Source of the DNA: a virus
Strand: one strand, 5' to 3'
IMG/VR virus record: IMGVR_UViG_3300025127_000332
Span: 1 to 21,682 of that record
Length of the DNA stretch: 21,682 nucleotides
The translations under genes were made by a program, and so were the position numbers. Positions 1,402 to 21,682 of this stretch are shown here, piece after piece (position 1 is the first letter of the stretch; every line of letters begins with the position of its first letter). Under the pieces are notes generated by a model. It saw only the letters and a list, made by a program, of their open reading frames with translations. It did no database searches and had not been told where the DNA came from.

Positions 1402-3951
1402 ATGGCAGCGACTATTGATGGTATTATTAATGAACCCACGATTAATTTCGTAGGTAAAGACGGTTTTTTCTGGTGGGTTGGTGAAGTAGAAGACAACGAA
1501 GATCCTATGGAACTTGGTCGAGTAAAGACTAGGATTCTAGGATACTATACTAATGTACAGGGAGGAACAACTGCTGATCTTCCTACAGATAAACTTCCTT
1601 GGGCAACTGTATTACAACACACATGTCAACCAGGTAATGACGGACAAGGTGAGAGTTCTGGACAACTTCAACCTGGTGCTATTGTCATGGGTTTCTTCAT
1701 GGATGGAGAAAACGCACAGATGCCTATTGTTATTGGTGTTTTGCGTGTAACTAAATCTTCAGATACTAGAACTAAACAACAGTTTACTTTTACAGGTGAA
1801 AAGTTTGAAGATGGTGTTGGAGTCAATCATGCTGCTAAACATCCTGCAAACGTAAATGATTCATTAGCAACATCACAAGGTGAAGGTTATTTACGACAAG
1901 GTAATACTAACGCAGTTGCATTGCCAGGTATGTTGACTACAGAACCTGGTGGTAATGGTTCTCCCGACAATATTGGTAATGCCACTGGTATTGCAGGTGG
2001 TAAACATAACCCAGTTAAACCAAAAGATCCTAGTCTACCAATCCCTGTAGCAAATGGTGTTGGCGGACCTTTTAAATCAATGGAGTATAAGTTATCTTAT
2101 CTCGTTGAAGAAATTGCAGAGACTGCTGCTGTCTTAGTAAAGACTGAGAAGGAAGGTGAATTTATTGATATGGTTACAGGTAAACTTGTAACTGTTAAAG
2201 AACTTACAGCAAAACTACAAAATTTCTTGAGTGCTATATTTACACAGGTAATTGGTGCTATCAGACAGTCACTAGCAAATCTAGCAGAGCAGTTAGATGT
2301 CGTAAATTTATTAGCAAGTGCTACTGGTATCCCATTTGTTGTTTTTACTACAATTCAAACAGCAGTTACACAGATACTAAGTCAGTTATGTATTATTGAT
2401 AGTCAGTTACTAGGTTATATTACTAATCCTCTTGCATCTGTAACAAACGTCTTAAACAGTTTCTTAGATGGAATTATAAGTAAAGCAGAGATGATTTTAC
2501 AGAGTGTTCAGAAAGTAATTGATGATGTTGTATGTAATGTTGAGAAGATTGTTAATCAAGCATTGGGAATTGTAAACAGCGTCAAATCTCTTGTAAGTGG
2601 TATTGGTAAAGCACAAGAAATTCTTGATGCTTGGGAAAAAGCAACAGAAATTTTTGAGGTCGCAACTGATCTGTTCAAGAAGAATCTAAACTTGACTGGA
2701 TTGATGGCAATCTTCCTTAAATTTGCAGCAGGTAATTGTAATAGACCTGTTGATGGAGGTAAAGATATTAAAGGTTTCTATCCTTTATTCGGTGTGACAA
2801 GTTGTACTGAAAGTGAGTTAGACAAGATTAATAAAATTAGAGGACGTAGTTCTGGTAAGTGTGGTGAAAATGATGCTGGTGGTGGTTTAATTGATAATAT
2901 TTTTAATAAAGCAGATCCTTATATACAATCTGCTACCACATATATTAATGGTGCATATGATTTATTCATAGGAACACCTGGTAGAGAAGGAACTCAAAGA
3001 AAGAATGAAAACGGAACTACACATACCTCAATAAAACTTAACAACAAAGAACATGCTAAGTGGAAATGGTTGCAGGCGAAGAGAAAAGAAAAACCAAATA
3101 TGTCTGAAGAGGCATTAAATGTTGCATATACAGAATACATAAAGGGTCAAACTGGAGACAATAATGATGATGCAGTTTTAGTTGCAGATCATTCTTCTTA
3201 TGCAGGTAATTATACCTGTGAAGTACATGGGGACGATTGTAAACAAGTTGATAATGATTATGTTCGCACTATTGATGGAGATTATCACCTAAAAGTTACT
3301 GGTGATTGTCATATTGAAGTGGGTGGTGGTTTCTTCCTTGATGCAGAAGGTGCTCCTAAAGTTGTTGACAAGCATGGTGAAAAGAAGAACGAAAAAGTTC
3401 AAAAGCATACAATCAAATTTGGATCTGATGTTGATATGAGTGTCGTTGGTGCTAAGTTTGAGTTACAAGGTGCTGAGGCAAACATTGCATCTACATCAAC
3501 TAAAATTACTGGTAGTATTTTTGAGAACTCTTCAACTCAACAAACATGTAGTGCAGGTGAAATGATTTTATCAGCAGATAACTCTATTACTATTGCTACA
3601 ACTACATTATTTGAAACTATTAACTTCCCACCATCACCAATTCCTAAGATAAAAGCAGGTATCATTAGAAAAATTGGTGGTTCTTGTGAGACTGTCATGA
3701 CACCCGCAGGTTCTGCTGCTGATGCTATTCCCAGATATATTGTTGCGAATCCTGCAGGTCCAATATCTGTTACCTCTGGTGCTACTGGATATAACAATAA
3801 TGTTCTTACAGGTCTCTTTAATGTCAATGTCGCTGCGGGTGCCATTACAATGAATTCTTCTACTGCTGCATCTATTATTGCTGGTGGTGCAATGAACCTC
3901 ACAGCAGGTGCAGTTATGAAACTGACAGCAGCAAGCATATTCCTAAACTGA
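1402..3951 (+). CDS. Baseplate hub/spike protein, gp5-like, without a recognisable lysozyme domain
   Basis: In T4, gp5 forms the central spike with an N-terminal OB-fold, a lysozyme domain and a C-terminal triple beta-helix. Residues about 23-115 match the OB-fold: FFWWVGEVEDNEDPMELGRVK, then a TDKLPWATVLQ strand, a GAIVMGFFMDGE strand and PIVIGVL. The centre (about 225-450) is a long hydrophobic helical stretch with repeated VVNL/IVNQ/VTNV-type heptads, in the place where lysozyme would be, with no visible lysozyme Glu...Asp/Thr pattern. Residues about 590-655 (VLVADHSSYAGNYTCEVHGDD, then GDCHIEVGGG) and the Ala/Thr/Gly-rich C-terminus ending in AASIFLN look like the beta-helical needle. At 849 residues it is much longer than T4 gp5 (575 residues). 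A perfect sigma70 promoter starts 3 bases after its stop. Confidence 0.85.
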   Translation: MAATIDGIINEPTINFVGKDGFFWWVGEVEDNEDPMELGRVKTRILGYYTNVQGGTTADLPTDKLPWATVLQHTCQPGNDGQGESSGQLQPGAIVMGFFMDGENAQMPIVIGVLRVTKSSDTRTKQQFTFTGEKFEDGVGVNHAAKHPANVNDSLATSQGEGYLRQGNTNAVALPGMLTTEPGGNGSPDNIGNATGIAGGKHNPVKPKDPSLPIPVANGVGGPFKSMEYKLSYLVEEIAETAAVLVKTEKEGEFIDMVTGKLVTVKELTAKLQNFLSAIFTQVIGAIRQSLANLAEQLDVVNLLASATGIPFVVFTTIQTAVTQILSQLCIIDSQLLGYITNPLASVTNVLNSFLDGIISKAEMILQSVQKVIDDVVCNVEKIVNQALGIVNSVKSLVSGIGKAQEILDAWEKATEIFEVATDLFKKNLNLTGLMAIFLKFAAGNCNRPVDGGKDIKGFYPLFGVTSCTESELDKINKIRGRSSGKCGENDAGGGLIDNIFNKADPYIQSATTYINGAYDLFIGTPGREGTQRKNENGTTHTSIKLNNKEHAKWKWLQAKRKEKPNMSEEALNVAYTEYIKGQTGDNNDDAVLVADHSSYAGNYTCEVHGDDCKQVDNDYVRTIDGDYHLKVTGDCHIEVGGGFFLDAEGAPKVVDKHGEKKNEKVQKHTIKFGSDVDMSVVGAKFELQGAEANIASTSTKITGSIFENSSTQQTCSAGEMILSADNSITIATTTLFETINFPPSPIPKIKAGIIRKIGGSCETVMTPAGSAADAIPRYIVANPAGPISVTSGATGYNNNVLTGLFNVNVAAGAITMNSSTAASIIAGGAMNLTAGAVMKLTAASIFLN

Positions 3952-3954
3952 TCC

Positions 3955-3983
3955 TTGACACTTGACCTCCGATCCCTTATAAT
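3955..3983 (+). promoter_or_regulatory. Perfect consensus sigma70 promoter (TTGACA - 17 bp - TATAAT)
   Basis: The -35 box TTGACA is at 3955-3960 and the -10 box TATAAT at 3978-3983, with exactly 17 bases between. Both hexamers and the spacing are the bacterial consensus. It sits between gp5 and the first of four small ORFs and begins 3 bases after the gp5 stop codon. In T4-like cyanophages, host-sigma-type promoters mark early genes, so the small-ORF/tRNA cassette is probably expressed early while its neighbours are late. Confidence 0.8.
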
Positions 3984-4004
3984 ATTAAGGTAAACGAGAA
4001 TCAA

Positions 4005-4226
4005 ATGACAGACGATTTTGCGAAAGATCTAACCCAGATTTACATTGATCAGGTATTCATTAACTTTTCTCGTAGATCTGTAAAGATCGTAGATAGTGAT
4101 GGTTATGATGACACTATCGAATGGAAATGGAATGAAGAGGGTGCTAATGGATTTTTGGAAACAGTGACCAATATCCAAAATAGTGTACCTTCAGAAATAG
4201 TAACCTATTGTTTTTCTGAAAAATGA
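4005..4226 (+). CDS. Small hypothetical protein, first gene of the early-type cassette
   Basis: I do not recognise this 73-residue protein. It is acidic, with a DSDGYDDTIEWKWNEEG stretch (about 30-46) and no signal peptide, membrane segment or cysteine motif (one Cys near the end). It starts about 20 bases after the -10 box of the consensus promoter, behind a weak purine-rich GAGA sequence. Its stop overlaps the next start in an ATGA junction, which argues that it is a translated gene in a coupled operon and not a chance ORF. Confidence 0.7.
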   Translation: MTDDFAKDLTQIYIDQVFINFSRRSVKIVDSDGYDDTIEWKWNEEGANGFLETVTNIQNSVPSEIVTYCFSEK

Positions 4227-4447
4227 ACCCACCTATCAACTGCACCGAACAAGAAGCTCAAGATCATCTTGACTTTTTGATAAGTATGTGCGAACGTAAT
4301 AGAGTTATCTGGAGAATTGAACGTGAAGATGGTAAGGCAGTATTAATGTCACCTATCTTACAATCTTCTCTTCCTGTATCAGATGATGTAGTAACTCAAG
4401 TTGAAGAGTTTCGCAAACAGTATCTGGAAAAGGAGGACGCTGCATGA
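4223..4447 (+). CDS. Small hypothetical protein, second gene of the cassette
   Basis: This is an unrecognised 74-residue protein. It begins at the ATG of an ATGA overlap with the preceding gene and ends in another ATGA overlap with the next one. The sequence is mainly helical in character, with CTEQEAQDHLDFLISMCERNR (about 7-27), a basic WRIERED segment and a charged end (VEEFRKQYLEKEDAA). No enzyme motif is visible. The tight overlaps on both sides support translation. Confidence 0.7.
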   Translation: MNPPINCTEQEAQDHLDFLISMCERNRVIWRIEREDGKAVLMSPILQSSLPVSDDVVTQVEEFRKQYLEKEDAA

Positions 4448-4530
4448 ACAACATCGGATTAGAAGTTGTATTTTGGACTATACTATCTGTATATCTTCTT
4501 GCAAAAATAGGAGTATTCAAAAAGAAATGA
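4444..4530 (+). CDS. 28-residue single-pass membrane peptide
   Basis: The ATG at 4444 opens a 28-codon frame ending in TGA at 4528-4530. The peptide has a short polar start (MNNIGLE), a hydrophobic segment VVFWTILSVYLLAKIGVF (residues 8-25) and a positive tail KKK, the layout of a small single-pass membrane protein. An exact AAGGAGG ribosome-binding site lies at 4430-4436, seven bases before the start. Both ends overlap the neighbouring genes by ATGA junctions. The strong Shine-Dalgarno sequence and the overlaps make it credible despite its size. Its function is unknown. Confidence 0.62.
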   Translation: MNNIGLEVVFWTILSVYLLAKIGVFKKK

Positions 4531-4790
4531 AACTAACTCAAGAACTAATTGACCAAATCCAAGAAGCAATGCTTCATACTAAGAAGGATGGCACTATCAA
4601 CTGGAAAGATACTGATGAGATTGAGGTGCAATTAGCAGGAACATTTGCTGCTGATAGATTTATTGTCATTAAGAACAGGACAAAAGATCCAGTAGTCTCT
4701 GCTGCACCACATCCTTACTTTGATTATGAGAAAGGTGTCTTTACTAAAGATGGTAGAGAAGAATATATGAAAGAACAAAAGAAAAAGTGA
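4527..4790 (+). CDS. Small hypothetical protein, last gene of the cassette
   Basis: The 87-residue protein starts at the ATG overlapping the stop of the 28-residue membrane peptide (ATGA). I prefer this start to the in-frame ATG at 4401, because the upstream extension would run through the preceding two genes. The visible sequence begins MKLTQELIDQIQEAML, has a KDGTINWKDTDEIE segment and a basic end (YMKEQKKK). I do not recognise a family. The gene ends two bases before the tRNA. Confidence 0.68.
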   Translation: MKLTQELIDQIQEAMLHTKKDGTINWKDTDEIEVQLAGTFAADRFIVIKNRTKDPVVSAAPHPYFDYEKGVFTKDGREEYMKEQKKK

Positions 4791-15186: not shown

Positions 15187-15744
15187 TTGTTTTATCATGA
15201 AAATGTGTTGCCCGAATTTAGGGCAACTGAACTATACAAATATCTCCTAGACTCCTCTTGGACATGGGGGTATCGCAGTCATAAATCTCAGATGAGAAGA
15301 AGCATACCTAAGTGGTCTATCTTTTTTGGGGGACCTACTAAGGAAAAGCAACCTTGTTATGACTGTGAGGGTGAACTTAGTGGAGTAATACTTGATGTAT
15401 GGAAAGACATCAAACCTTACTTAGATTCAGAAGATGTTTTAGTTCGTTGTTATGCAAATGCTCAAACGTGTGGTCAAGATCAAAGATTACATACTGATGA
15501 CTCTATAGAGTCAAGTAAAACTATAATTGTATATGTGAATGAATCTTGGAACGCTGATTGGGGAGGAGAAACTATTATTTGGGATAGTGAAAAGAGATTG
15601 ATAACTCATTCAGTATTACCTAAATTTAGATCTGTCTTAGGTTTTCCTGGTAATGTTTGGCACGGAGTTAGATCAGTCAGTCAATACTGCGATTCTCTCA
15701 GAATGACTTTAATGTTTAAAACTAGACATAACAAAGATATATAA
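15187..15744 (+). CDS. 2OG-Fe(II) oxygenase family protein embedded among the fibre genes
   Basis: These enzymes use Fe(II), O2 and 2-oxoglutarate to hydroxylate proteins, nucleic acids or small molecules. The 185-residue protein has the double-stranded beta-helix ligand set: His102 and Asp104 (LHTDD), His159 (VWHGV) as the distal iron ligand, and Arg172 (SLRMTLMFK) in the 2OG-binding position. A GGETIIW strand (126-132) and a PG turn before His159 fit the fold. The start is a TTG at 15187, three bases after the previous stop, giving FYHENVLPEF, the usual opening of this family; an in-frame GTG at 15205 would cut into it. Substrate unknown. Its isolated place between two fibre genes suggests a virion protein target. 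Confidence 0.85.
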   Translation: MFYHENVLPEFRATELYKYLLDSSWTWGYRSHKSQMRRSIPKWSIFFGGPTKEKQPCYDCEGELSGVILDVWKDIKPYLDSEDVLVRCYANAQTCGQDQRLHTDDSIESSKTIIVYVNESWNADWGGETIIWDSEKRLITHSVLPKFRSVLGFPGNVWHGVRSVSQYCDSLRMTLMFKTRHNKDI

Positions 15745-15747
15745 ATA
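15740..15747 (+). promoter_or_regulatory. T4-type late promoter (TATAAATA)
   Basis: Exact late octamer 21 bases before the small gene at 15769. Its TAA (15742-15744) is the stop of the embedded oxygenase gene. Confidence 0.72.
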
Positions 15748-15768: not shown

Positions 15769-15951
15769 ATGGCATCTGGAAGATTAAACGTAGAAACTTG
15801 TGAACCAACGGTTCAAATTAACTTACCAGTATTTCCTCAATGGGATTTACCGAAAGGTGAGGTAGGTGCTGTAATCTATGTTCTCGACCGCATAAATAGA
15901 GGAGGACTAAGATTTTATGGTCCTAAAGATGGTGTCAATCAATGGAATTAA
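15769..15951 (+). CDS. Small fibre-region module protein (60 aa)
   Basis: A 60-residue protein starting MASGRLNVETCEP. Its second half (LPKGEVGAVIYVLDRINRG, then GLRFYGPKDGVNQW) aligns by pattern with the G-x-x-R-F-N-T ... Y-x-G-x-x-W part of the neighbouring module proteins, but it lacks the QRP element. It lies just behind a late promoter and 6 bases before the glycine-rich gene. I read it as a minimal fibre adaptor or decoration; function not shown. Confidence 0.6.
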   Translation: MASGRLNVETCEPTVQINLPVFPQWDLPKGEVGAVIYVLDRINRGGLRFYGPKDGVNQWN

Positions 15952-15957
15952 TTTAAC

Positions 15958-17010
15958 ATGTCACAACTCAATGCTGGTACACTCAATGTTACCAACACAT
16001 TAAAACTTCCTAATTACACTACGTCAGGTCGTAACGCATTAAGTCCTTCAGTTGGAACTATGATTTTCAACACAACGGACTCGATAGTTGAGATTTGGAA
16101 TGGTTCAGAGTGGGCACCTGCAGGTGGAGCAAGTGAAACATTTATTGTTGCATCTGGAGGATCGATCACAGAATCAGGTAATTATAAGATTCATACATTC
16201 AACAGTAGTGGTGCAAACTTTACGGTATCGCAGATTGCATCTGACTCTGCTAATAATAATGTTGAGTATCTCATTGTCGCTGGTGGCGGTGGTGGCGGTG
16301 GATTTGGAAGTGGTCTAAATGGAAACTTCGGATCTGCTGGTGGAGGAGGAGCAGGTGGTTTAGTTCACTCTGGTGGATATAACTTCCCTGTTGCTGTTCA
16401 AACATATACAGTTAATGTCGGTGGTGGTGGAACTGGCGGTACTGGAAATGGTATGGGTGCTGACGGAGGTGGAAGTCAGTTCGGTTCTATAACTGCAACA
16501 GGTGGTGGAGGTGGAGCTCAGCAAGACCAAAACGGAAGACCTGGTGGGTCAGGTGGAGGAAACGGAACTGATGGAGAGGGTTGGAATGAACCTGCAGGAT
16601 CTGGTGTACCAGGTCAAGGATATCCTGGCGGTAAAGGTGGTTCATCTCAAAACGCAACCTCTGGTGGAGGTGGTGGTGCAAACCAAGCAGGAGAAAACGG
16701 ATATAACAGACCAAACAGTAGACCTGCACAGGGAGGAGACGGAAAATCTATTGATATCACTGGTTCTCCTACAACATATGCAGGTGGTGGCGGTGGAGCG
16801 AACTATCCAGGTGGTCCTCATAACCCAGAGGGCGGTGCTGGTGGCGGTGGTCCTGGTGCTACTAACCCTAATGGTAATGGAACCAATGGCACTGACGGTT
16901 TAGGCGGTGGTGGAGGAGGTTCTGCTGACCAAGATCCTCGTAACTATCCAGAACCTAAAGGTGGTAATGGTGGATCTGGTGTTGTAATCATTAAGTATAA
17001 ATTCCAGTAA
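15958..17010 (+). CDS. Glycine-rich tail fibre / adhesin-like protein
   Basis: Residues 1-60 repeat the local module (MSQLNAGTLNVTNTLKLP, TTSGRNALSP, GTMIFNTTDSIVEIWNGSEW). Residues about 61-102 form a beta segment ending in NVEYLIVAGGGGGGG. Residues about 104-335 are extremely glycine-rich with many GGGG, GGAGG and PGG turns, and the protein closes with GGSGVVIIKYKFQ, a common ending of glycine-rich phage tail proteins. Such domains build polyglycine-helix adhesins at fibre tips, as in the T4-like phage S16 adhesin, and bind host surface structures. Function as host-binding adhesin is inferred from that family type and from the position. Glycine-X-proline turns (about GQGYPGGKGG, GAGGGGPGA) are of interest next to prolyl-hydroxylase-like genes. 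Confidence 0.82.
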   Translation: MSQLNAGTLNVTNTLKLPNYTTSGRNALSPSVGTMIFNTTDSIVEIWNGSEWAPAGGASETFIVASGGSITESGNYKIHTFNSSGANFTVSQIASDSANNNVEYLIVAGGGGGGGFGSGLNGNFGSAGGGGAGGLVHSGGYNFPVAVQTYTVNVGGGGTGGTGNGMGADGGGSQFGSITATGGGGGAQQDQNGRPGGSGGGNGTDGEGWNEPAGSGVPGQGYPGGKGGSSQNATSGGGGGANQAGENGYNRPNSRPAQGGDGKSIDITGSPTTYAGGGGGANYPGGPHNPEGGAGGGGPGATNPNGNGTNGTDGLGGGGGGSADQDPRNYPEPKGGNGGSGVVIIKYKFQ

Positions 17011-17014
17011 AATT

Positions 17015-17542
17015 ATGGCACATTTCGCAAGATTAGACAAAGACAACACTGTAGTTGACATTCTCAAAGTGGATAATGAACTTATCCTTGATGATAATGG
17101 TGTAGAGCAAGAAAGTATCGGGATACAAAAACTTCAAGTAGGTAATCCTGGTGGTATATTTGTAAAAACATCATACAATACAGAAGCGAACGAGCATAGA
17201 GCAGGAGGAACTCCTTTTAGAAAAAACTATGCAATGATAGGTGGTAAGTACGATGCTGTTCGTGATGCTTTCGTTGGAGAACGACTGTATCCAGAACAGA
17301 CAGTGCTTGACACAGACACAATGCAATGGTATACTCCTTTTATAGGTAAGCAAGCATCTGACAATGCTGGCAATCCAATGCCCTATGATGACAATAGTGA
17401 TTATGACACTAAAGCAAAAGTCATCTTAAAAGATTGGGCATGGGATAGTAAAAACAAAACCTATGTAGGAACTGCCATTACTAAAAAAGTTGCTGTAAAC
17501 TATGCATTCAATAGCTCCACTGGTAAATGGGAGGAACAGTAA
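17015..17542 (+). CDS. Conserved fibre-adjacent hypothetical protein
   Basis: The 175-residue protein begins MAHFARLDKDNTVVDILKVDNE, followed by LDDNGVEQESIGIQKL and a TSYNTEANEHRAGGTPFRKNYAMIGGKYDAVRDAF segment. This opening and the R.NYA.IG..YD...D.F pattern are ones I associate with a small protein common near tail fibres in marine phages. No enzymatic residues stand out. It lies 4 bases after the glycine-rich gene, so it is probably its partner or chaperone, or another virion part. A sigma70-like promoter pattern lies inside it at 17307-17335. Confidence 0.7.
   Translation: MAHFARLDKDNTVVDILKVDNELILDDNGVEQESIGIQKLQVGNPGGIFVKTSYNTEANEHRAGGTPFRKNYAMIGGKYDAVRDAFVGERLYPEQTVLDTDTMQWYTPFIGKQASDNAGNPMPYDDNSDYDTKAKVILKDWAWDSKNKTYVGTAITKKVAVNYAFNSSTGKWEEQ
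17307..17335 (+). promoter_or_regulatory. Candidate intragenic sigma70-like promoter upstream of the oxygenase operon
   Basis: TTGACA at 17307-17312 and TATACT at 17330-17335, 17 bases apart, lie inside the coding region of the gene at 17015. They are about 220 bases before the first gene of the oxygenase string, which has no late octamer in front of it. A chance match within coding sequence is possible. Confidence 0.33.
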
Positions 17543-17558
17543 TTATTGATTCTTCATT

Positions 17559-18122
17559 ATGCTTTTTGCGTGTTTTCCAAGACCGATTTTATTTGAACCA
17601 AATATTCTAAACGAAAACCTAGAAACTTATGAGACAGATGTCAAACATGCTGTCTCTAAGGTCGGTTCAATGAGAGATTCTATGTTAAACGTAGATTCTA
17701 CTCATAAACTTAGAGAAAATATTTTTGAGGTTGCTCGACTAAAAGATTTACGTCAAGCGATCTTTTTTCATGCAACAAATTTTTTACAAGAGATAGGATA
17801 TAAAAATACAGACTCATTACATTTTGAAAATGTATGGGCAAACATAAGTCATAAAGGTGACTATCTATTTCCTCATGTACACAATGGTTCTTTACTATCT
17901 GGTGTTTACTATGTAAAATGTGACATGAAAGATAAACTTAAATTTTTTAACACACCTAGTATGTTGCCAGAACCTACAGAATATAATCAATATAATGCAC
18001 AGTTCGCAGAGTATGCATGTATTCCTGGTGCATTAATGATGTTTACAAGTGATCTACTACACGGAACTGATAAACAAATTGGTGAAGAAAAAATTGCAAT
18101 TTCATTTAACATGAATTTATGA
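17559..18122 (+). CDS. 2OG-Fe(II) oxygenase-like protein (type with HVHNGSLLSGVYY)
   Basis: A 187-residue protein with the pattern of the small phage/bacterial 2OG oxygenase group. An N(I)SHKGDYLFPHVH segment (about 95-108) is followed by NGSLLSGVYYVK (109-120) and LKFFNTP. Near the end come GALMMFTSDLLHGT with His168 and the strand IAISFNMNL. His106 or His108 and His168 are the expected iron ligands. The usual 2OG-binding Arg near residue 178 is Lys, so activity or cosubstrate binding may be altered. The ATG at 17559 is the first gene of the coupled string, and its stop overlaps the next start (ATGA). Family call good; catalytic competence uncertain. Confidence 0.75.
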   Translation: MLFACFPRPILFEPNILNENLETYETDVKHAVSKVGSMRDSMLNVDSTHKLRENIFEVARLKDLRQAIFFHATNFLQEIGYKNTDSLHFENVWANISHKGDYLFPHVHNGSLLSGVYYVKCDMKDKLKFFNTPSMLPEPTEYNQYNAQFAEYACIPGALMMFTSDLLHGTDKQIGEEKIAISFNMNL

Positions 18123-18715
18123 ATAGGATAGGTTTCATTGCTGGTTGGAAGATCTCAGACGAAGCATGTGATGGTCTGATTGATTTCTTTGAAGAGTCAC
18201 CTGATAAGAAAGCAGGTGAAGTTGGTAAAGGTCTTGACCCAGAGTCAAAAGTATCTACAGATATTACAGTTTGCCCTAATATACCTGATAATAGAATACA
18301 AAATTACCTAGATGAATTAGGAAAGGTATGCAATGAATATACAAATCTATTTGAATGGTCATCAAAGTCTCATGCTTTATGGGGATTGAATACTAATTTC
18401 AATATTCAAAAATATAAACCTAACGAAGGTTTTTACTCATGGCATATGGAGAGAGCATCTTATAAAGATCTTAATTCATATAGACATCTAGTCTTTATGA
18501 CATATCTAAATGATGTAACAGATGGTGGACAAACAGAGTGGTATCATCAACAGGTGAAGATTCAACCAGAAAAAGGAATGACATACATTTGGCCATGTGA
18601 TTGGACACATACTCATCGTGGAATACCCTCACCTACTCAAACTAAATATATTACTACTGGTTGGTACACATATCATCTACCAGATTTTGATTATACAGAG
18701 TGGAATGGAGGTTAG
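18119..18715 (+). CDS. 2OG-Fe(II) oxygenase, prolyl-hydroxylase-like
   Basis: A 198-residue protein. FNIQKYKPNEGFYSWHMERAS (about 94-114) supplies His109 and Glu111 in place of the usual His-x-Asp pair. TYLNDVTDGGQTEWYHQQVKI (128-148) is the typical core, followed by PEKGMTYIWPCDWTHTHRG (150-168) with His164 or His166 as distal ligand and KYITTGWYTY (176-185) as the last strand with Lys for Arg. This pattern is close to the phage prolyl-4-hydroxylase-like group. It overlaps the preceding gene by ATGA and ends directly against the next ATG, with a GGAGG ribosome-binding site (18707-18711) inside its last codons. Confidence 0.82.
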   Translation: MNRIGFIAGWKISDEACDGLIDFFEESPDKKAGEVGKGLDPESKVSTDITVCPNIPDNRIQNYLDELGKVCNEYTNLFEWSSKSHALWGLNTNFNIQKYKPNEGFYSWHMERASYKDLNSYRHLVFMTYLNDVTDGGQTEWYHQQVKIQPEKGMTYIWPCDWTHTHRGIPSPTQTKYITTGWYTYHLPDFDYTEWNGG

Positions 18716-19324
18716 ATGAATTTAAAAAATTCCTATTGGTATTTTAAAGGTGTAATTAGACCAGAGATATGTGATCGTATCATTGCTATGGGTAAGAGAA
18801 GGTGTAATAAATTAGGACAGGTGAATAAAGAATCACCTAAGGAAGTAGAAGAGTATAGTCAAGAAGAACTTGATAATCTGTTAAAGGTTAGAAACTCTCA
18901 TGTCGCTTGGTTAGATGAACCTTGGATTTATAACATACTAAAACCTTTGGTAGATGAAGCAAACAAAAATGCTGAGTGGAACTTTCAATGGGATACAACA
19001 GAGTCAGCACAGTTCACAGAATACAAACCAGGTCAATTTTATGATTGGCACCCCGACATGGGAACTGACCCATATTCAGAGGGTAAGTGGCAAGGTAAGT
19101 ATAGAAAATTATCTACCACATTATTGTTAAATGACCCTAGCGAATTTGATGGAGGTACGCTAGAATTTCATCATCACAGAGATAAACTCACAATATGTGA
19201 GGAACTAGATATGCAAGGGTCATTGGTCGTATTTCCCTCATTTGTATATCATAGAGTAAACCCAGTAACTAGGGGTGTTAGATACTCTCTAGTCACATGG
19301 AATTGTGGATTTCCTTTCGTATGA
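18716..19324 (+). CDS. 2OG-Fe(II) oxygenase, PKHD/PiuC-like
   Basis: A 202-residue protein with a complete ligand set: His112 and Asp114 (FYDWHPDMG), His179 (FPSFVYHRVNPV) and Arg189 (RGVRYSLVTW). The core strands KLSTTLLLNDP and FDGGTLEF (131-151) match the PKHD-type hydroxylase pattern. N-terminal residues 8-30 (WYFKGVIRPEICDRIIAMG) are the usual opening. This is the most canonical oxygenase of the string. The start directly follows the preceding stop, with TGGAGG four bases upstream. The stop overlaps the following small ORF (ATGA). Substrate unknown. Confidence 0.88.
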   Translation: MNLKNSYWYFKGVIRPEICDRIIAMGKRRCNKLGQVNKESPKEVEEYSQEELDNLLKVRNSHVAWLDEPWIYNILKPLVDEANKNAEWNFQWDTTESAQFTEYKPGQFYDWHPDMGTDPYSEGKWQGKYRKLSTTLLLNDPSEFDGGTLEFHHHRDKLTICEELDMQGSLVVFPSFVYHRVNPVTRGVRYSLVTWNCGFPFV

Positions 19325-19425
19325 AAACAGAACTACTACTAAAAATTTACAAGGCGGTCAAGGTAAAACCTAAACCAAAGATCAAACCTGTTCGCACACA
19401 TTACAACGCACATTTATTCGGGTGA
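19321..19425 (+). CDS. 34-residue basic ORF between oxygenase genes
   Basis: ATG at 19321 overlaps the preceding stop (ATGA), and its TGA at 19423-19425 overlaps the GTG start of the next oxygenase (GTGA). The peptide is basic, with a KVKPKPKIKP stretch in the middle and HYNAHLFG at the end. The two coupling overlaps are the only evidence that it is translated. It fills what would otherwise be a gap of nearly 100 bases in a gapless operon. Confidence 0.45.
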   Translation: MKTELLLKIYKAVKVKPKPKIKPVRTHYNAHLFG

Positions 19426-19946
19426 TTTACGTTTCTCAAACAAATATAACACCAGAGTTATCAAAGGAACTCATAGAGTTCTTTAACTCTAATATACTTA
19501 AGACATATGTCTGGGACGAAACCAGAGTCTTAAGTATGGACGCTGGTGGCATGGGAAATAAAGAATTACCTGACACATATTATAAGTTAGTAGAACTTAC
19601 TAAGACTATCAAATCATTTGTAGATCATGATTCTAAATTTAAGATACTACAAAATGTAGAGATAGTTAAGTATCCTTGTGGAGCAGCAAAGGGATACCAT
19701 TATGATGTAACTAGAAAGACAACAACAGGTGCATCTATTACATATCTAAATGATGATTATATTGGTGGTAATACTATTATTGGAGGTGTTGATGTTCAAC
19801 CTATGATGGGTCGGACAGTATATTTTGATGGGTGTGAGTTTAGACACGCTGTATCAAATGTTCTCAAAGGAGATAGATACACAATATCATCATGGTATGG
19901 TGAAGATGTATCATTACCACTCAACAAAGATTTCACCAACTTATGA
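19422..19946 (+). CDS. 2OG-Fe(II) oxygenase family protein
   Basis: A 174-residue protein. Ligands are His93 and Asp95 (KGYHYDVTR), His142 (FDGCEFRHAV) and Arg152 (GDRYTISSWYG). The core SITYLNDDYIGGNTII (105-120) and GVDVQPMMGRTVYF fit the double-stranded beta-helix. The start is GTG at 19422, overlapping the small ORF, and gives IYVSQTNITPELSKELIEFF, a normal family opening. The end overlaps the next gene by ATGA. All catalytic positions appear intact. Confidence 0.85.
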   Translation: MIYVSQTNITPELSKELIEFFNSNILKTYVWDETRVLSMDAGGMGNKELPDTYYKLVELTKTIKSFVDHDSKFKILQNVEIVKYPCGAAKGYHYDVTRKTTTGASITYLNDDYIGGNTIIGGVDVQPMMGRTVYFDGCEFRHAVSNVLKGDRYTISSWYGEDVSLPLNKDFTNL

Positions 19947-20419
19947 AAATTATTGACAAAGCATTAGATGTAGAATTATTTTCTATCATTAGAAAATTAG
20001 GTTGTGACTCTCAAAGTTTACCTTGGTATTTGGAGACCGATATATCTGGTATGGGTGAAGAAGAAAATTGTTATTTCACCCATTTGTTTTACAATAATGA
20101 TACTGTTTGTAGTGACTATATGAAGTGGGGTCAAGCATTAAAAAATTATCTGGGAGCAAAAGCATTCATCAGAATCAAAGCAAATTTATATCCAAGAACC
20201 GACACTATTGTGCATCATACAGATCATGTTGACTATGATTTTGATCATAATGCTGCTATACTATACTTAAATACAAATGATGGATTTACTGTAATTGGTG
20301 ACGAAAAAATTGAATCAGTAGCAAATAGAATGTTATTGTTTAATCCTCAGATACCACACCATAGCACAACTTGTACTGATACTCAATTCAGATCAAACAT
20401 CAATTTTAATTATTTCTGA
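19943..20419 (+). CDS. 2OG-Fe(II) oxygenase family protein (short, 158 aa)
   Basis: A compact member of the fold. RIKANLYPRTDTIVHHTD (77-94) supplies His92 and Asp94, AAILYLNTNDGFTVIGD (104-120) is the core, MLLFNPQIPHHST (130-142) gives His139 or His140, and QFRSNINFNYF (148-158) has Arg150 in the 2OG position. The N-terminus is short (about 75 residues before the core strands). Coupling is by ATGA with the previous gene and by a TGATG junction with the next. Confidence 0.8.
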   Translation: MKIIDKALDVELFSIIRKLGCDSQSLPWYLETDISGMGEEENCYFTHLFYNNDTVCSDYMKWGQALKNYLGAKAFIRIKANLYPRTDTIVHHTDHVDYDFDHNAAILYLNTNDGFTVIGDEKIESVANRMLLFNPQIPHHSTTCTDTQFRSNINFNYF

Positions 20420-20775
20420 TGACTAGAATCTTAAACCCAAGAGAAACATATATTTTTCCAGAGTATGTCAATGTTCCATACACAGGAGACTATGAGCAAC
20501 TTTGTAAAGGTATTGAAGAAGTATTGAAAAATGAATTCAATGCTAAGATTGATTATGCAGAAGTCAGAGAACTAGAAGATGAAGATGTATGTTCTGATGG
20601 ACAGTTCACTGCTGTAGTATCTACAGTTACAGGAACTTTATACATCTATTGTTGGGAGGTTCATGGTTGTTCACATGAATTCAAATTAAAACCTGTCACG
20701 AAACATATTCAAAGAGGAATCATGTATCGTCTTATAAATGTGAGGGATATAGAGAATGCAAAACATTATTTTTAA
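20419..20775 (+). CDS. Hypothetical protein inside the oxygenase operon
   Basis: An unrecognised 118-residue protein that lacks the His-x-Asp...His...Arg oxygenase pattern. It starts MTRILNPRETYIFPEYVNVP, has a helical acidic middle (LCKGIEEVLKNEFNAKIDYAEVRELEDEDV, about 28-57, cysteines at 29 and 58), and strand-like FTAVVSTVTGTLYIYCW and HGCSHEFKL segments. The next gene starts 20 bases before its stop. It could be a partner or substrate-binding protein of the neighbouring enzymes, but nothing in it proves that. Confidence 0.65.
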   Translation: MTRILNPRETYIFPEYVNVPYTGDYEQLCKGIEEVLKNEFNAKIDYAEVRELEDEDVCSDGQFTAVVSTVTGTLYIYCWEVHGCSHEFKLKPVTKHIQRGIMYRLINVRDIENAKHYF

Positions 20776-21352
20776 GATCGTATCTAATCTACCAGTAGTT
20801 TTTATTCAAGACTTTTATGATAAAGAAGAACTTGAATTGATTATGAAAGAACTACATTATTTTAGAGACGAAAATATATTTAAGAAACCAGGTGACCCAT
20901 TTGGACCTGGTACTGCTATTCGTGATGGTGTTGAATTGAAAGATGGTTTAGGGTTACACTTAGATAGTTTCTATGATAAGAGAAGGGATGAGTCAAATAT
21001 ATTGAGAGTCAATAGAAAATTATTTTCAACAGAAGTTGTGACTCTACTGGAAGGACTGCATACATTTTTTAGATATATCTCAGAATCATCTGAAGATAAT
21101 ACTAAAATACATTATTTTAATCAAGGTAATCATTACAAACAACATATAGACTCAACAACCATAACTGCTATCTCATACTTTCATAACATACCTAAAACAT
21201 TTACTGGTGGAGATTTGATTGTAGAATCACGACTTCACATTCCTTGCCTAAATAATTCACTTGTAATATTTCCCTCGATCTTATGGCATGAAGTGACACC
21301 CGTAGAAGGAACGGGTAGATATGCTATGAGTCAATTTATATCAATGGCATGA
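20756..21352 (+). CDS. 2OG-Fe(II) oxygenase family protein
   Basis: A 198-residue protein. KIHYFNQGNHYKQHIDST (117-134) provides His130 and Asp132, TAISYFHNIPKTFTGGDLIV (137-156) is the core, SLVIFPSILWHEVTPV (168-183) gives His178, and GTGRYAMSQF (185-194) gives Arg188. This is a complete, canonical set close to the small phage 2OG oxygenases. The start at 20756 overlaps the preceding gene by 20 bases. The stop overlaps the next gene (ATGA). Confidence 0.87.
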   Translation: MQNIIFKIVSNLPVVFIQDFYDKEELELIMKELHYFRDENIFKKPGDPFGPGTAIRDGVELKDGLGLHLDSFYDKRRDESNILRVNRKLFSTEVVTLLEGLHTFFRYISESSEDNTKIHYFNQGNHYKQHIDSTTITAISYFHNIPKTFTGGDLIVESRLHIPCLNNSLVIFPSILWHEVTPVEGTGRYAMSQFISMA

Positions 21353-21682
21353 AACTAACTCAATTTGAAAGCGATCCACCAAAGACTAAGTTTGCACCAG
21401 TATTTGATTATTGGGTGTATGAAAACTTTGTAGATATTGGTGATTTAAAATCAATTATCTTATCAAAAGAAAAAGAAATTATAGAAGGTAATCCATACAC
21501 ACATGATTGGAATACAGGATTGGGTAAGGATAGTTTAACATCTCGATCTGATTGCTACAATATATTGAAGTGGGGTGAAGCACATTTTTTAAAAGAGATT
21601 ATCAGATCATCACATGATAATATGATTACCGAGTTAGGATATAATTGGGAGAATAGAATCTATGTTCAATGTTGGGCAAACG
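21349..21682 (+). CDS. 2OG-Fe(II) oxygenase-like protein, N-terminal part (cut by window end)
   Basis: The first 111 codons are visible, starting at the ATG that overlaps the previous stop. The visible part (FAPVFDYWVYENFVDIGDLK at 15-34, and NRIYVQCWAN at the end) has the pattern that in this oxygenase group leads into the iron-binding His strand, which would lie just beyond the edge. The catalytic residues are therefore not visible and the family call is inferred from the N-terminal pattern and the operon. The gene continues past 21682. Confidence 0.6.
   Translation, partial: MKLTQFESDPPKTKFAPVFDYWVYENFVDIGDLKSIILSKEKEIIEGNPYTHDWNTGLGKDSLTSRSDCYNILKWGEAHFLKEIIRSSHDNMITELGYNWENRIYVQCWAN

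Follow-up and report, generated by a model that had tools for sequence, protein, structure and literature searches.

The window analysed here, a marine, cyanomyovirus-like contig of 21,682 nt (IMGVR_UViG_3300025127_000332), ends inside a cassette of oxygenase-like genes that follows a T4-type late-promoter motif and a gene for a Gly-rich protein, gly. The existence of this module is well supported. The near-constant row of oxygenase genes behind a Gly-rich, tail-like gene suggests the chemical finishing of part of the virus tail, and we hold as an evenly balanced proposal that this is an oxygenase module of T4-like cyanophages that is late and linked to the tail, and whose enzymes hydroxylate gly or a partner. 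The choice of the Gly-rich protein or a partner as substrate is the least secure step of this proposal.

Organisation of the module

Seven differing oxygenase-like genes (ox1 to ox7) lie in tandem between positions 17559 and 21682, all on the plus strand like the other features described below. The first-pass annotation had counted these seven, and both their ORFs and their Pfam or PHROG matches bear it out, but it missed an eighth gene, ox0 (15187..15744). This extra 2OG-Fe(II) oxygenase, with a TTG start, was found solely in the nearest relatives of the window (orthologues at 87–96% in L001, L002, L009 and repeats of those contigs), and its end falls at the late-promoter motif TATAAATA (15740..15747) that heads the module. 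A 60-aa ORF (15769..15951), whose place is taken by small ORFs of weak similarity in S-SM1 (65 aa) and S-RSM4 (63 aa), separates the motif from gly (15958..17010), the first large gene of the unit, which encodes 350 aa including 104 Gly, 7 Lys and 5 Arg and belongs to phrog_2295 (no function listed). The 175-aa protein encoded by mahfa (17015..17542; phrog_7759) stands between gly and the oxygenases.

The row then comprises ox1 (17559..18122), ox2 (18119..18715), ox3 (18716..19324), a basic, Lys/Pro-rich 34-codon ORF (19321..19425), ox4 (19422..19946), ox5 (19943..20419), unk118 (20419..20775), ox6 (20756..21352) and ox7 (21349..21682). The ATGA (−4, at 18119, 19943 and 21349), GTGA (19422) and abutting (18716) junctions described earlier are present, and overlaps of −1 (20419) and −20 (20756) were also measured. 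The 34-codon ORF is kept in the clade of the window; it is present in 8 of 10 loci, window counted, is longer in one, and is absent from L036 and L012. Among the core genes, unk118 has the lowest conservation. The predicted model of its product (pLDDT 86) gave no clear match in the PDB and, among viral models, E 0.001 was reached by a near-copy and by the S-SM1 and S-RSM4 orthologues only.

The last gene had rightly been taken for a partial one: the array is cut at 21682 and does not end there, and the near-identical contig L028 carries the whole of ox7 (213 aa) and, beyond it, a QueG/reductive-dehalogenase-like 4Fe-4S protein together with five further oxygenase-like genes. The string reads gly, mahfa and ox1 to ox8, with unk118 and the QueG-like gene among them, followed by a variable end with more oxygenase-like genes. 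The upstream gly and mahfa and the downstream QueG-like protein are parts of the module beyond the earlier description. Among 50 records with the QueG-like gene, ox7 lies directly upstream of it in 49; ox8 comes next in 40 of these, and in the remaining 9 the contig runs out inside 165 nt. The gene is located away from the cassette in L071, where the gene after it resembles a sugar epimerase by eye.

The QueG-like protein matched PDB entry 5d6s at 3.3e-5 (5.7e-5 by profile). A Foldseek search with its weak model (pLDDT 53) returned QueG in all of the best ten rows, at E 0.006–0.044 and none below 0.001, and the VIA aligner, which gave it no Z above 6.8 and so none reaching 8, scored QueG much like dehalogenases, B12 chaperones, nitroreductases and certain phage neck proteins. 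All three proteins compared with the NCBIfam QueG model TIGR00276 remained under its cut-off (14.5–19.1 bits vs 200). The two-cluster cysteine pattern is common to QueG, the reductive dehalogenases and the cassette protein, in which 25 rows show no variation at C162, C165, C169, C173, C189, C206, C209 and C213, or at C59 and C177. By analogy, the first eight of these would be the cluster ligands, and an Asp aligns with the VD motif of QueG. In contrast to QueG chains of about 370–400 aa, the cassette protein has 237 aa; the match ends near QueG residue 277 and the C-terminal part is missing. A QueG-family alignment run against genome_contigs gave 43 pattern matches and no relative; since the search was crudely seeded with two short patterns, the gene may yet have a distant cellular source.

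Oxygenase families and their predicted iron ligands

Five of the six complete oxygenase genes between 17559 and 21352, as well as ox0 and the L028 ox7 and ox10, passed the superfamily cut-off (PF13640/PF13759). Oxy_3 was matched over its curated cut-off by ox2 (6.2e-12), ox3 (1.7e-15), ox4 (4e-8) and ox6 (3.9e-11), all of PF13640 type, and Oxy_5 by ox1 (4.9e-14), of PF13759/TIGR02466 type, and by the complete PF13759-type ox7 of L028 (3.9e-11); ox0 matched PF13640 (6.2e-8) and PF13661 (1.2e-6). Among the window's oxygenases, ox5 lacked a Pfam match of its own. It matches phrog_274 at 8.2e-39, and 7 of the 22 members of its alignment match PF13640 (best 3.2e-7). Below the Pfam cut-off were ox5, ox8 (25.1 bits vs 27) and ox9, and ox11 and ox12 of L028 gave no Pfam match.

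The His-x-Asp/Glu pair and distal His noted earlier for the genes at 18119, 18716, 19422, 19943 and 20756 are as described: ox2 (HxE...H...K) and ox3 to ox6 (HxD...H...R) have the triad and a distal Arg or Lys in all rows counted. All ligands were retained in 48/48 (ox2), 62/62 (ox3), 47/47 (ox4), 50/50 (ox5), 51/51 (ox6) and 49/49 (ox7) rows. Altogether the predicted iron ligands are kept in every counted row of 11 of the 12 families, with 39–62 rows each for ox2 to ox8 and 6–8 rows for ox9 to ox12. For these counts, relatives below 38% identity (except for unk118) and proteins below 85% of the reference length were dropped, the rows counted include near-copies and a few duplicates, and the ox11 and ox12 figures leave out ferrochelatase-labelled orthologues carrying other working names. 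The gene at 17559 had been called a variant, and ox1 indeed has HxH...H, a pattern found in three more of the longer cassette's families (ox7, as HxH...H...R, ox8 and ox10); 33 of 38 rows keep all three ligands of ox1, and the remaining 5 have lost them. These four families depart from HxD/E...H, but ox1, ox7 and ox10 are still over the PF13759 cut-off, and 2OG chemistry is putative for all four.

The best solved relative of ox3 is the PKHD hydroxylase PiuC (9.3e-10), prolyl 4-hydroxylases appearing at E 0.22 only. This similarity to the PiuC/YbiX PKHD hydroxylases stops short of membership, as ox3 matches the NCBIfam PKHD/YbiX models far under their cut-offs. The profiles of ox5/9 and ox7/8 retrieved no oxygenase from the PDB. 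Profile-profile comparison linked ox2-ox3, ox2-ox4, ox3-ox6, ox7-ox8, ox1-ox7, ox1-ox10 and ox8-ox10 at 91–100%, and ox5/ox9 best to ox4 (69%); the method is insensitive here, because some pairs of the same Pfam family, such as ox2-ox6, score near zero.

Conservation, late-promoter motif and tail linkage

The string recurs in related phages beside tail genes: S-RSM4 carries it in the same order, S-SM1 carries it minus ox1, and the order is found again in IMG/VR contigs. Since it recurs in two isolates and dozens of contigs, the cassette is not a product of chance. Window genes are under purifying selection (dN/dS 0.04–0.27, from a set that left out L014–L026 and short pieces and in which several dS values exceed 1.5), and distance correlations, computed among module genes only, were 0.60–0.94. 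In agreement with the earlier view that no recent tandem duplication is involved, the proteins are old paralogues: a tree that left out ox1, ox7 and others recovered a single clade for each of ox2, ox3, ox4, ox6 and ox9 (bootstrap 98–100, SH-aLRT 97–100), but not for ox5, because ox9 falls within it.

Of 34 loci, 28 have the motif TATAAATA no more than 300 nt ahead of gly, as against 4 copies across 236,015 nt inside the module, three of which lie about 1040 nt after the gly start. Five of the six loci without a near motif have it about 1284 nt upstream, past a second gly-like gene. These 34 loci are distinct only over the first 401 nt of gly, and near-copies remain among them. A shuffle test found the motif in 12/12 representatives (mean 0.33, maximum 3), which were picked after the motif was seen; 28/34 is the fairer figure. 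The weight of the motif lies in its position and not in its number, because the window has 3 copies against a shuffle mean of 2.03.

Among the twelve core genes, gly has the top median pairwise identity (71%). It had no match in the PDB and is called tail-like from its neighbouring genes only. Among the loci retrieved with gly, those with a strong orthologue have mahfa next (37/37) and then an oxygenase (36/37; L128 ends first). Loci with a weak gly relative only have an ox3 relative near in 10 of 23 cases; no oxygenase is visible in the other 13, and many of these loci are cut short. A relative of mahfa is present in phage Bellamy, with no oxygenase annotated in 12 kb, and in the Melnitz phages, where no oxygenase adjoins it and an ox3 relative lies far off.

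Like these mahfa loci, the scattered position of relatives of the cassette oxygenases in other cyanophages, some beside a helicase gene, speaks against the tail-linked reading. 2OG-Fe(II) oxygenases are common in marine phages, and ox3 relatives alone occur in 345 of 50,697 phage records. Such phages have an estimated 4–23 oxygenase-like genes, a number at which some proximity to tail genes may be due to chance; the estimates are rough, being based on profile hits that were merged, S-SCSM1 giving 22 against the 24 2OG-Fe(II) oxygenase genes reported in the available portion of its description (PMC9602691).

Taken together, fixed order, purifying selection and the late-promoter motif argue for one module over scattered housekeeping enzymes. 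This part of the earlier proposal of a multi-enzyme pathway stands; the enzymes may act successively on one substrate, but many site-specific enzymes acting on one or few proteins fit the data equally well.

Candidate substrates and gene labels

In the proposed tail-linked module, the genes would be expressed late, along with the tail genes, and each oxygenase, using Fe(II), O2 and 2-oxoglutarate, would have a residue of its own to hydroxylate on gly, or on a co-assembled fibre or partner, so that the virion would leave the cell carrying an oxidised receptor-contact structure. The QueG-like protein might contribute a single reduction or have a cofactor as its target. More tentatively, and with some doubt, the cassette could be a finishing line for a tail adhesin, in which about 8–13 position-specific oxygenases and a cobalamin-type reductase pattern oxidised residues densely on a polyglycine-rich receptor-contact protein. 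We know of no multi-site post-translational modification of this kind for any phage tail; Iyer and colleagues have reportedly worked on peptide-modifying dioxygenases. Against the tail-linked proposal, no column of the gly alignment splits the loci by presence of a working ox1; six mahfa columns do so, the ox1-less loci possibly being one lineage.

Counting against the protein-substrate reading, the QueG-like protein gives a hint of chemistry on a small molecule or nucleoside, and in L071 its gene lies away from the cassette. The place of this protein in the string is among the arguments for an unlikely alternative, in which a small molecule, sugar or lipid group (a cofactor, siderophore-like compound or surface glycan) is built or tailored by the cassette through a series of oxidations and a single reduction, the tail genes merely sharing the late promoter. 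The epimerase-like neighbour in L071 points the same way, as do the PiuC-type relatives of ox3, which belong to iron-uptake loci. However, Pfam and PHROGs revealed no ligase, carrier protein or glycosyltransferase in the cassette, and gly, mahfa and an ox3 relative occur together in further phage contigs.

We consider it more doubtful still that the enzymes act on DNA or RNA, modifying or repairing it in an AlkB/TET-like manner, as a published suggestion and the PHROG labels 'DNA endonuclease' (phrog_2297, ox4) and 'DNA endonuclease V' (phrog_274, ox5) would have it. Relatives adjoin a helicase gene in several cyanophages, and the ox11/ox12 family gave two insignificant Tet-like rows (E 0.22 and 0.31, with unrelated rows at similar E). 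Against this, ox4 and ox5 relatives match PF13640, the module has a late-promoter motif and tail neighbours, and the QueG-like protein falls well short of QueG in length and extent of match.

A very improbable role is the one put forward in print from gene content by Sullivan et al. 2010, in the part of PMC3037559 available to us, whereby the enzymes would shift the level of 2-oxoglutarate and, through NtcA, the nitrogen regulation of the host: consuming one metabolite needs no series of distinct, ligand-keeping families in fixed order, and the late-promoter motif precedes a tail-like gene. Neutral accumulation of singly arrived, partly redundant genes in a variable tail region has equally little to recommend it, for the variable downstream end and the absent or ligand-less ox1 of some loci are met by an order kept in 49/50 records, invariant ligands in eleven families and dN/dS of 0.04–0.27.

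That oxygenase genes abound in cyanophages is already published, the accessible text of PMC3037559 giving them as numerous in 14 of 16 genomes. The published enzymes share the superfamily, PF13640 and PF13759 with the cassette, and relatives of its single members occur in other cyanophages. In contrast, the portions seen of PMC9602691 and PMC3037559 deal with gene counts and with host-metabolism or DNA-repair roles, which this literature, as far as available, mostly proposes for marine phages, and do not describe a late fixed-order unit with a Gly-rich, tail-like gene at its start or a QueG-like partner. Searches of the partly accessible literature turned up neither this unit nor its promoter, its tail linkage or its reductase, and nothing on a cyanophage epoxyqueuosine reductase or on a prolyl hydroxylase with a cyanophage tail fiber. 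With a late-promoter motif and a tail-like gene at its head, a fixed-order unit makes the purpose of phage oxygenases directly testable on tail proteins.

The analysis also calls two phage gene labels into question, as both 'DNA endonuclease V' (phrog_274) and 'ferrochelatase' (phrog_2954) look doubtful for such genes. The phrog_2954 family has an invariant HxD...HWR, none of its 8 members matched Pfam ferrochelatase (E up to 1), and single members gave weak Pfam rows for PhyH (0.011), Oxy_2 (0.02), LamB_YcsF (0.045) and Asp_Arg_Hydrox (0.11). Profile-profile comparison left it unlinked to all oxygenases (≤3%). We offer as a suggestion, from the HxD...H pattern and the weak Pfam rows, that it may be an oxygenase. 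The pelagiphage papers, in the parts available (PMC9599517, PMC11561400), take this gene as a ferrochelatase, and PMC11561400 uses the label in an ecological argument on seasonal phages. Both report it co-located with a 2OG oxygenase gene, and HTVC008M and HTVC023P have a phrog_2954 gene in one short run with a relative of ox3.

Oxygenase genes of the window and of a longer cassette

From 17559 to the window end at 21682, the oxygenase-like genes named here ox1 to ox7, the last cut by the contig end, are all read in the same direction; a 34-codon ORF and a 118-aa ORF (unk118) lie among them. This confirmed the seven-gene array described in the first-pass annotation: five of the six complete genes matched Pfam oxygenase models over cut-off, and the sixth, ox5 at 19943, matched phrog_274, PF13640 being matched by 7 of its 22 aligned relatives. 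An additional Pfam-supported oxygenase gene (ox0) starts at 15187. The window is a 21,682-base virus record whose tail genes, encoding a baseplate hub and tail lysozyme and a tail fibre protein, are of the T4-like cyanophage type, and cyanophages were the nearest phages in the collection compared. The 34-codon ORF (19321-19425) encodes a basic Lys/Pro-rich peptide; it is retained in the window's clade, being present in 8/10 loci compared, window included, and is missing from loci with overlapping ox3 and ox4. Conservation among the core genes is lowest in unk118 (20419-20775; median identity 38%), whose product has 78 aa in the cyanophage S-RSM4, 118 in the window and 123 in S-SM1, and a confident predicted fold without clear PDB match.

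Contig L028 is 99-100% identical to the window over ox1-ox5 and 92% over ox6, and it contains a complete ox7 (213 aa). Downstream of ox7 come a 240-aa Fe-S protein and five further genes: ox8 (205 aa, phrog_81), ox9 (162 aa, phrog_274), ox10 (158 aa, phrog_81, PF13759 over cut-off), ox11 (193 aa, phrog_2954) and ox12 (210 aa, phrog_2954). Sequence matches thus predict twelve oxygenase or oxygenase-like genes behind the Gly-rich gene gly (15958-17010), tail-like by its neighbours, and mahfa (17015-17542); the assignment is least certain for the two from phrog_2954. In phrog_2954 ('ferrochelatase'), HxD...HWR is invariant and the Pfam ferrochelatase match is absent in 8/8 members; profile-profile comparison did not join this family to the oxygenases. 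Oxygenase-like proteins are also contained in phrog_274 ('DNA endonuclease V') and phrog_2297 ('DNA endonuclease'), and for the members examined all three labels look wrong or doubtful.

Gene order, late-promoter motif and QueG-like member

The isolates S-RSM4 (Gibbetvirus) and S-SM1 (Thetisvirus) share the order gly, mahfa, ox1, ox2-ox5, unk118, ox6, ox7, QueG-like gene, ox8, with ox1 present in S-RSM4 only. Of 50,697 phage records, 4 encode the QueG-like Fe-S protein (queg), and these are S-RSM4 and S-SM1, each twice; it was also found in 49 IMG/VR loci. Neighbours were counted in 50 records (48 IMG/VR contigs and the two isolates, some near-identical): ox7 lies directly upstream and ox8 next in 40, while in 9 ox7 is upstream and the contig ends within 165 nt downstream. 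The sole exception is L071, whose QueG-like gene (3910-4665) is the one case located outside the cassette; as judged by eye, it lies between the gene for a recombination-nuclease ATPase and that for a sugar epimerase. The contig carries one distant ox1 relative (26%).

PDB QueG was matched by queg at 3.3e-5 as a single sequence and 5.7e-5 by profile. The NCBIfam QueG model was matched weakly, far below cut-off, as were reductive dehalogenase models by one of three queg proteins. All 25 aligned rows have the QueG-like cysteine spacing and an Asp aligned with the VD motif, whose Asp is catalytic in QueG. With phmmer, PsaC ferredoxin chains appeared from 3.6e-4, through cluster motifs only. The structure model was poor (pLDDT 53); its ten best Foldseek rows were QueG (E 0.006-0.044), whereas a second aligner listed a number of fold relatives with Z of 5-7, scores that the aligner itself describes as possibly reflecting no more than a common arrangement.

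In 28 of 34 loci the T4 late-promoter motif TATAAATA stands no more than 300 nt upstream of gly, which heads the unit; its position is -218 to -250 or -42 to -52. Inside the module body there are 4 copies in 236,015 nt, three of them about 1040 nt after the gly start, near the gly-mahfa junction. Since the whole window has 3 copies against a shuffle mean of 2.03, placement of the motif is informative and its number is not. PMC3037559 gives the motif as the seven-base TATAAAT. All six loci that lack the exact motif within 300 nt have AATAAATA at -33. Five of them (L049, L052, L061, L119, L125) have the exact motif 1284-1285 nt upstream and a second gly-like gene ahead of gly, as if inserted behind the promoter; the upstream sequence of the sixth is too short.

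That cyanophages carry many 2OG oxygenase genes is already known. Such genes are numerous in 14/16 cyanophage genomes, where a part in setting 2OG levels or in repairing DNA has been proposed for them (PMC3037559), number 24 in S-SCSM1 (PMC9602691), occur in pelagiphages as eight distinct oxygenases co-located with 'ferrochelatases' (PMC9599517) and are, together with 'ferrochelatases', seasonally enriched (PMC11561400). In the literature searched, as far as its text was accessible, we found no description of the fixed-order unit, promoter, gly partner or QueG-like member.

Functional constraint and ancestry

Ligand counts included near-copies and a few duplicates, relatives below 38% identity and short pieces having been removed. 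The predicted iron ligands were HxE...H in ox2 (48/48 rows), HxD...H in ox3 (62/62), ox9 (8/8), ox11 (6/6) and ox12 (7/7), and HxH...H in ox7 (49/49), ox8 (39/39) and ox10 (6/6); they were likewise kept in ox4 (47/47), ox5 (50/50) and ox6 (51/51). In ox1 all three were present in 33/38 rows and all three lost in 5/38 (L047, L048, L055, L056, L066; H to R, H to F, H to Y) with the frame intact, so that ox1 of these five loci, some of them near-copies, is possibly a pseudoenzyme.

Comparison of the window's genes with five relatives gave dN/dS of 0.04-0.27, one mahfa comparison being undefined and some dS saturated. Inter-locus distances correlate at 0.60-0.94 across twelve core genes, which could come from common descent alone because the comparison was confined to module genes. 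In a tree of 76 proteins, for which the program warns of long branches, ox2, ox3, ox4, ox6 and ox9 each form one clade (98-100 bootstrap, 97-100 SH-aLRT); ox5 does not, as ox9 is nested inside it. Genes of P-SSM7, P-SSM4, HTVC008M and HTVC023P fall into particular ox families, as do 3/4 from S-TIM4, the fourth (TIM4_o50) lying near ox4 and ox5 without resolved placement. The earlier view that the array is not a recent tandem duplication was borne out by these separate supported clades; these cassette oxygenases are old, distinct enzymes kept together.

Possible late hydroxylation and wider distribution

As the most likely reading, we infer that the cassette would serve late hydroxylation of gly or a tail partner. 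Gly, mahfa and the oxygenases would be co-produced late in infection, and the oxygenases would hydroxylate defined residues on gly (104 Gly in 350 aa; median pairwise identity 71%) or a tail partner before assembly, each enzyme having its own site or type of residue. The ox3 protein is PKHD/PiuC-like, and folds of this kind include protein hydroxylases. In the rows counted for ox2-ox12, Asp, Glu or His occupies the second ligand position and neither Ala nor Gly occurs there, which favours hydroxylation over halogenation.

A search seeded with gly instead of the oxygenases returned 63 loci, of which 61 with new ids were scanned. Strong gly was present in 37/61, many on contigs known from the earlier comparison, with mahfa next in 37/37 and an oxygenase after mahfa in 36/37, L128 ending first; L135 contains the gly end only. 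Among 23 loci with a weak gly relative, an ox3 relative was nearby in 10, seven of them ordered gly, mahfa, oxygenase, and was not found nearby in 13, many of whose contigs end early. Phage Bellamy has a mahfa relative without annotated oxygenase beside it, and in Melnitz phages mahfa relatives are distant from the ox3 relative; both count against the gly-mahfa-oxygenase pairing.

In 17 hand-picked phage records (15 cyanophages, 2 pelagiphages) we estimated 4-23 oxygenase-like genes each, with a run of at least four in 7/17, two of the seven being one species. Pelagibacter phages have runs of three (HTVC023P) and five (HTVC008M), phrog_2954 gene counted. A few kilobases from the five-gene run of HTVC008M, genes for a tryptophan halogenase (PrnA) and a 2OG oxygenase overlap (L082, 2525-4484). 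In the lake phage DSL-LC04 (L156, 5324-6284), overlapping genes for a 2OG oxygenase and a mahfa-like protein precede a lectin-like gene, which repeats the mahfa-oxygenase pairing of the cassette outside marine cyanophages.
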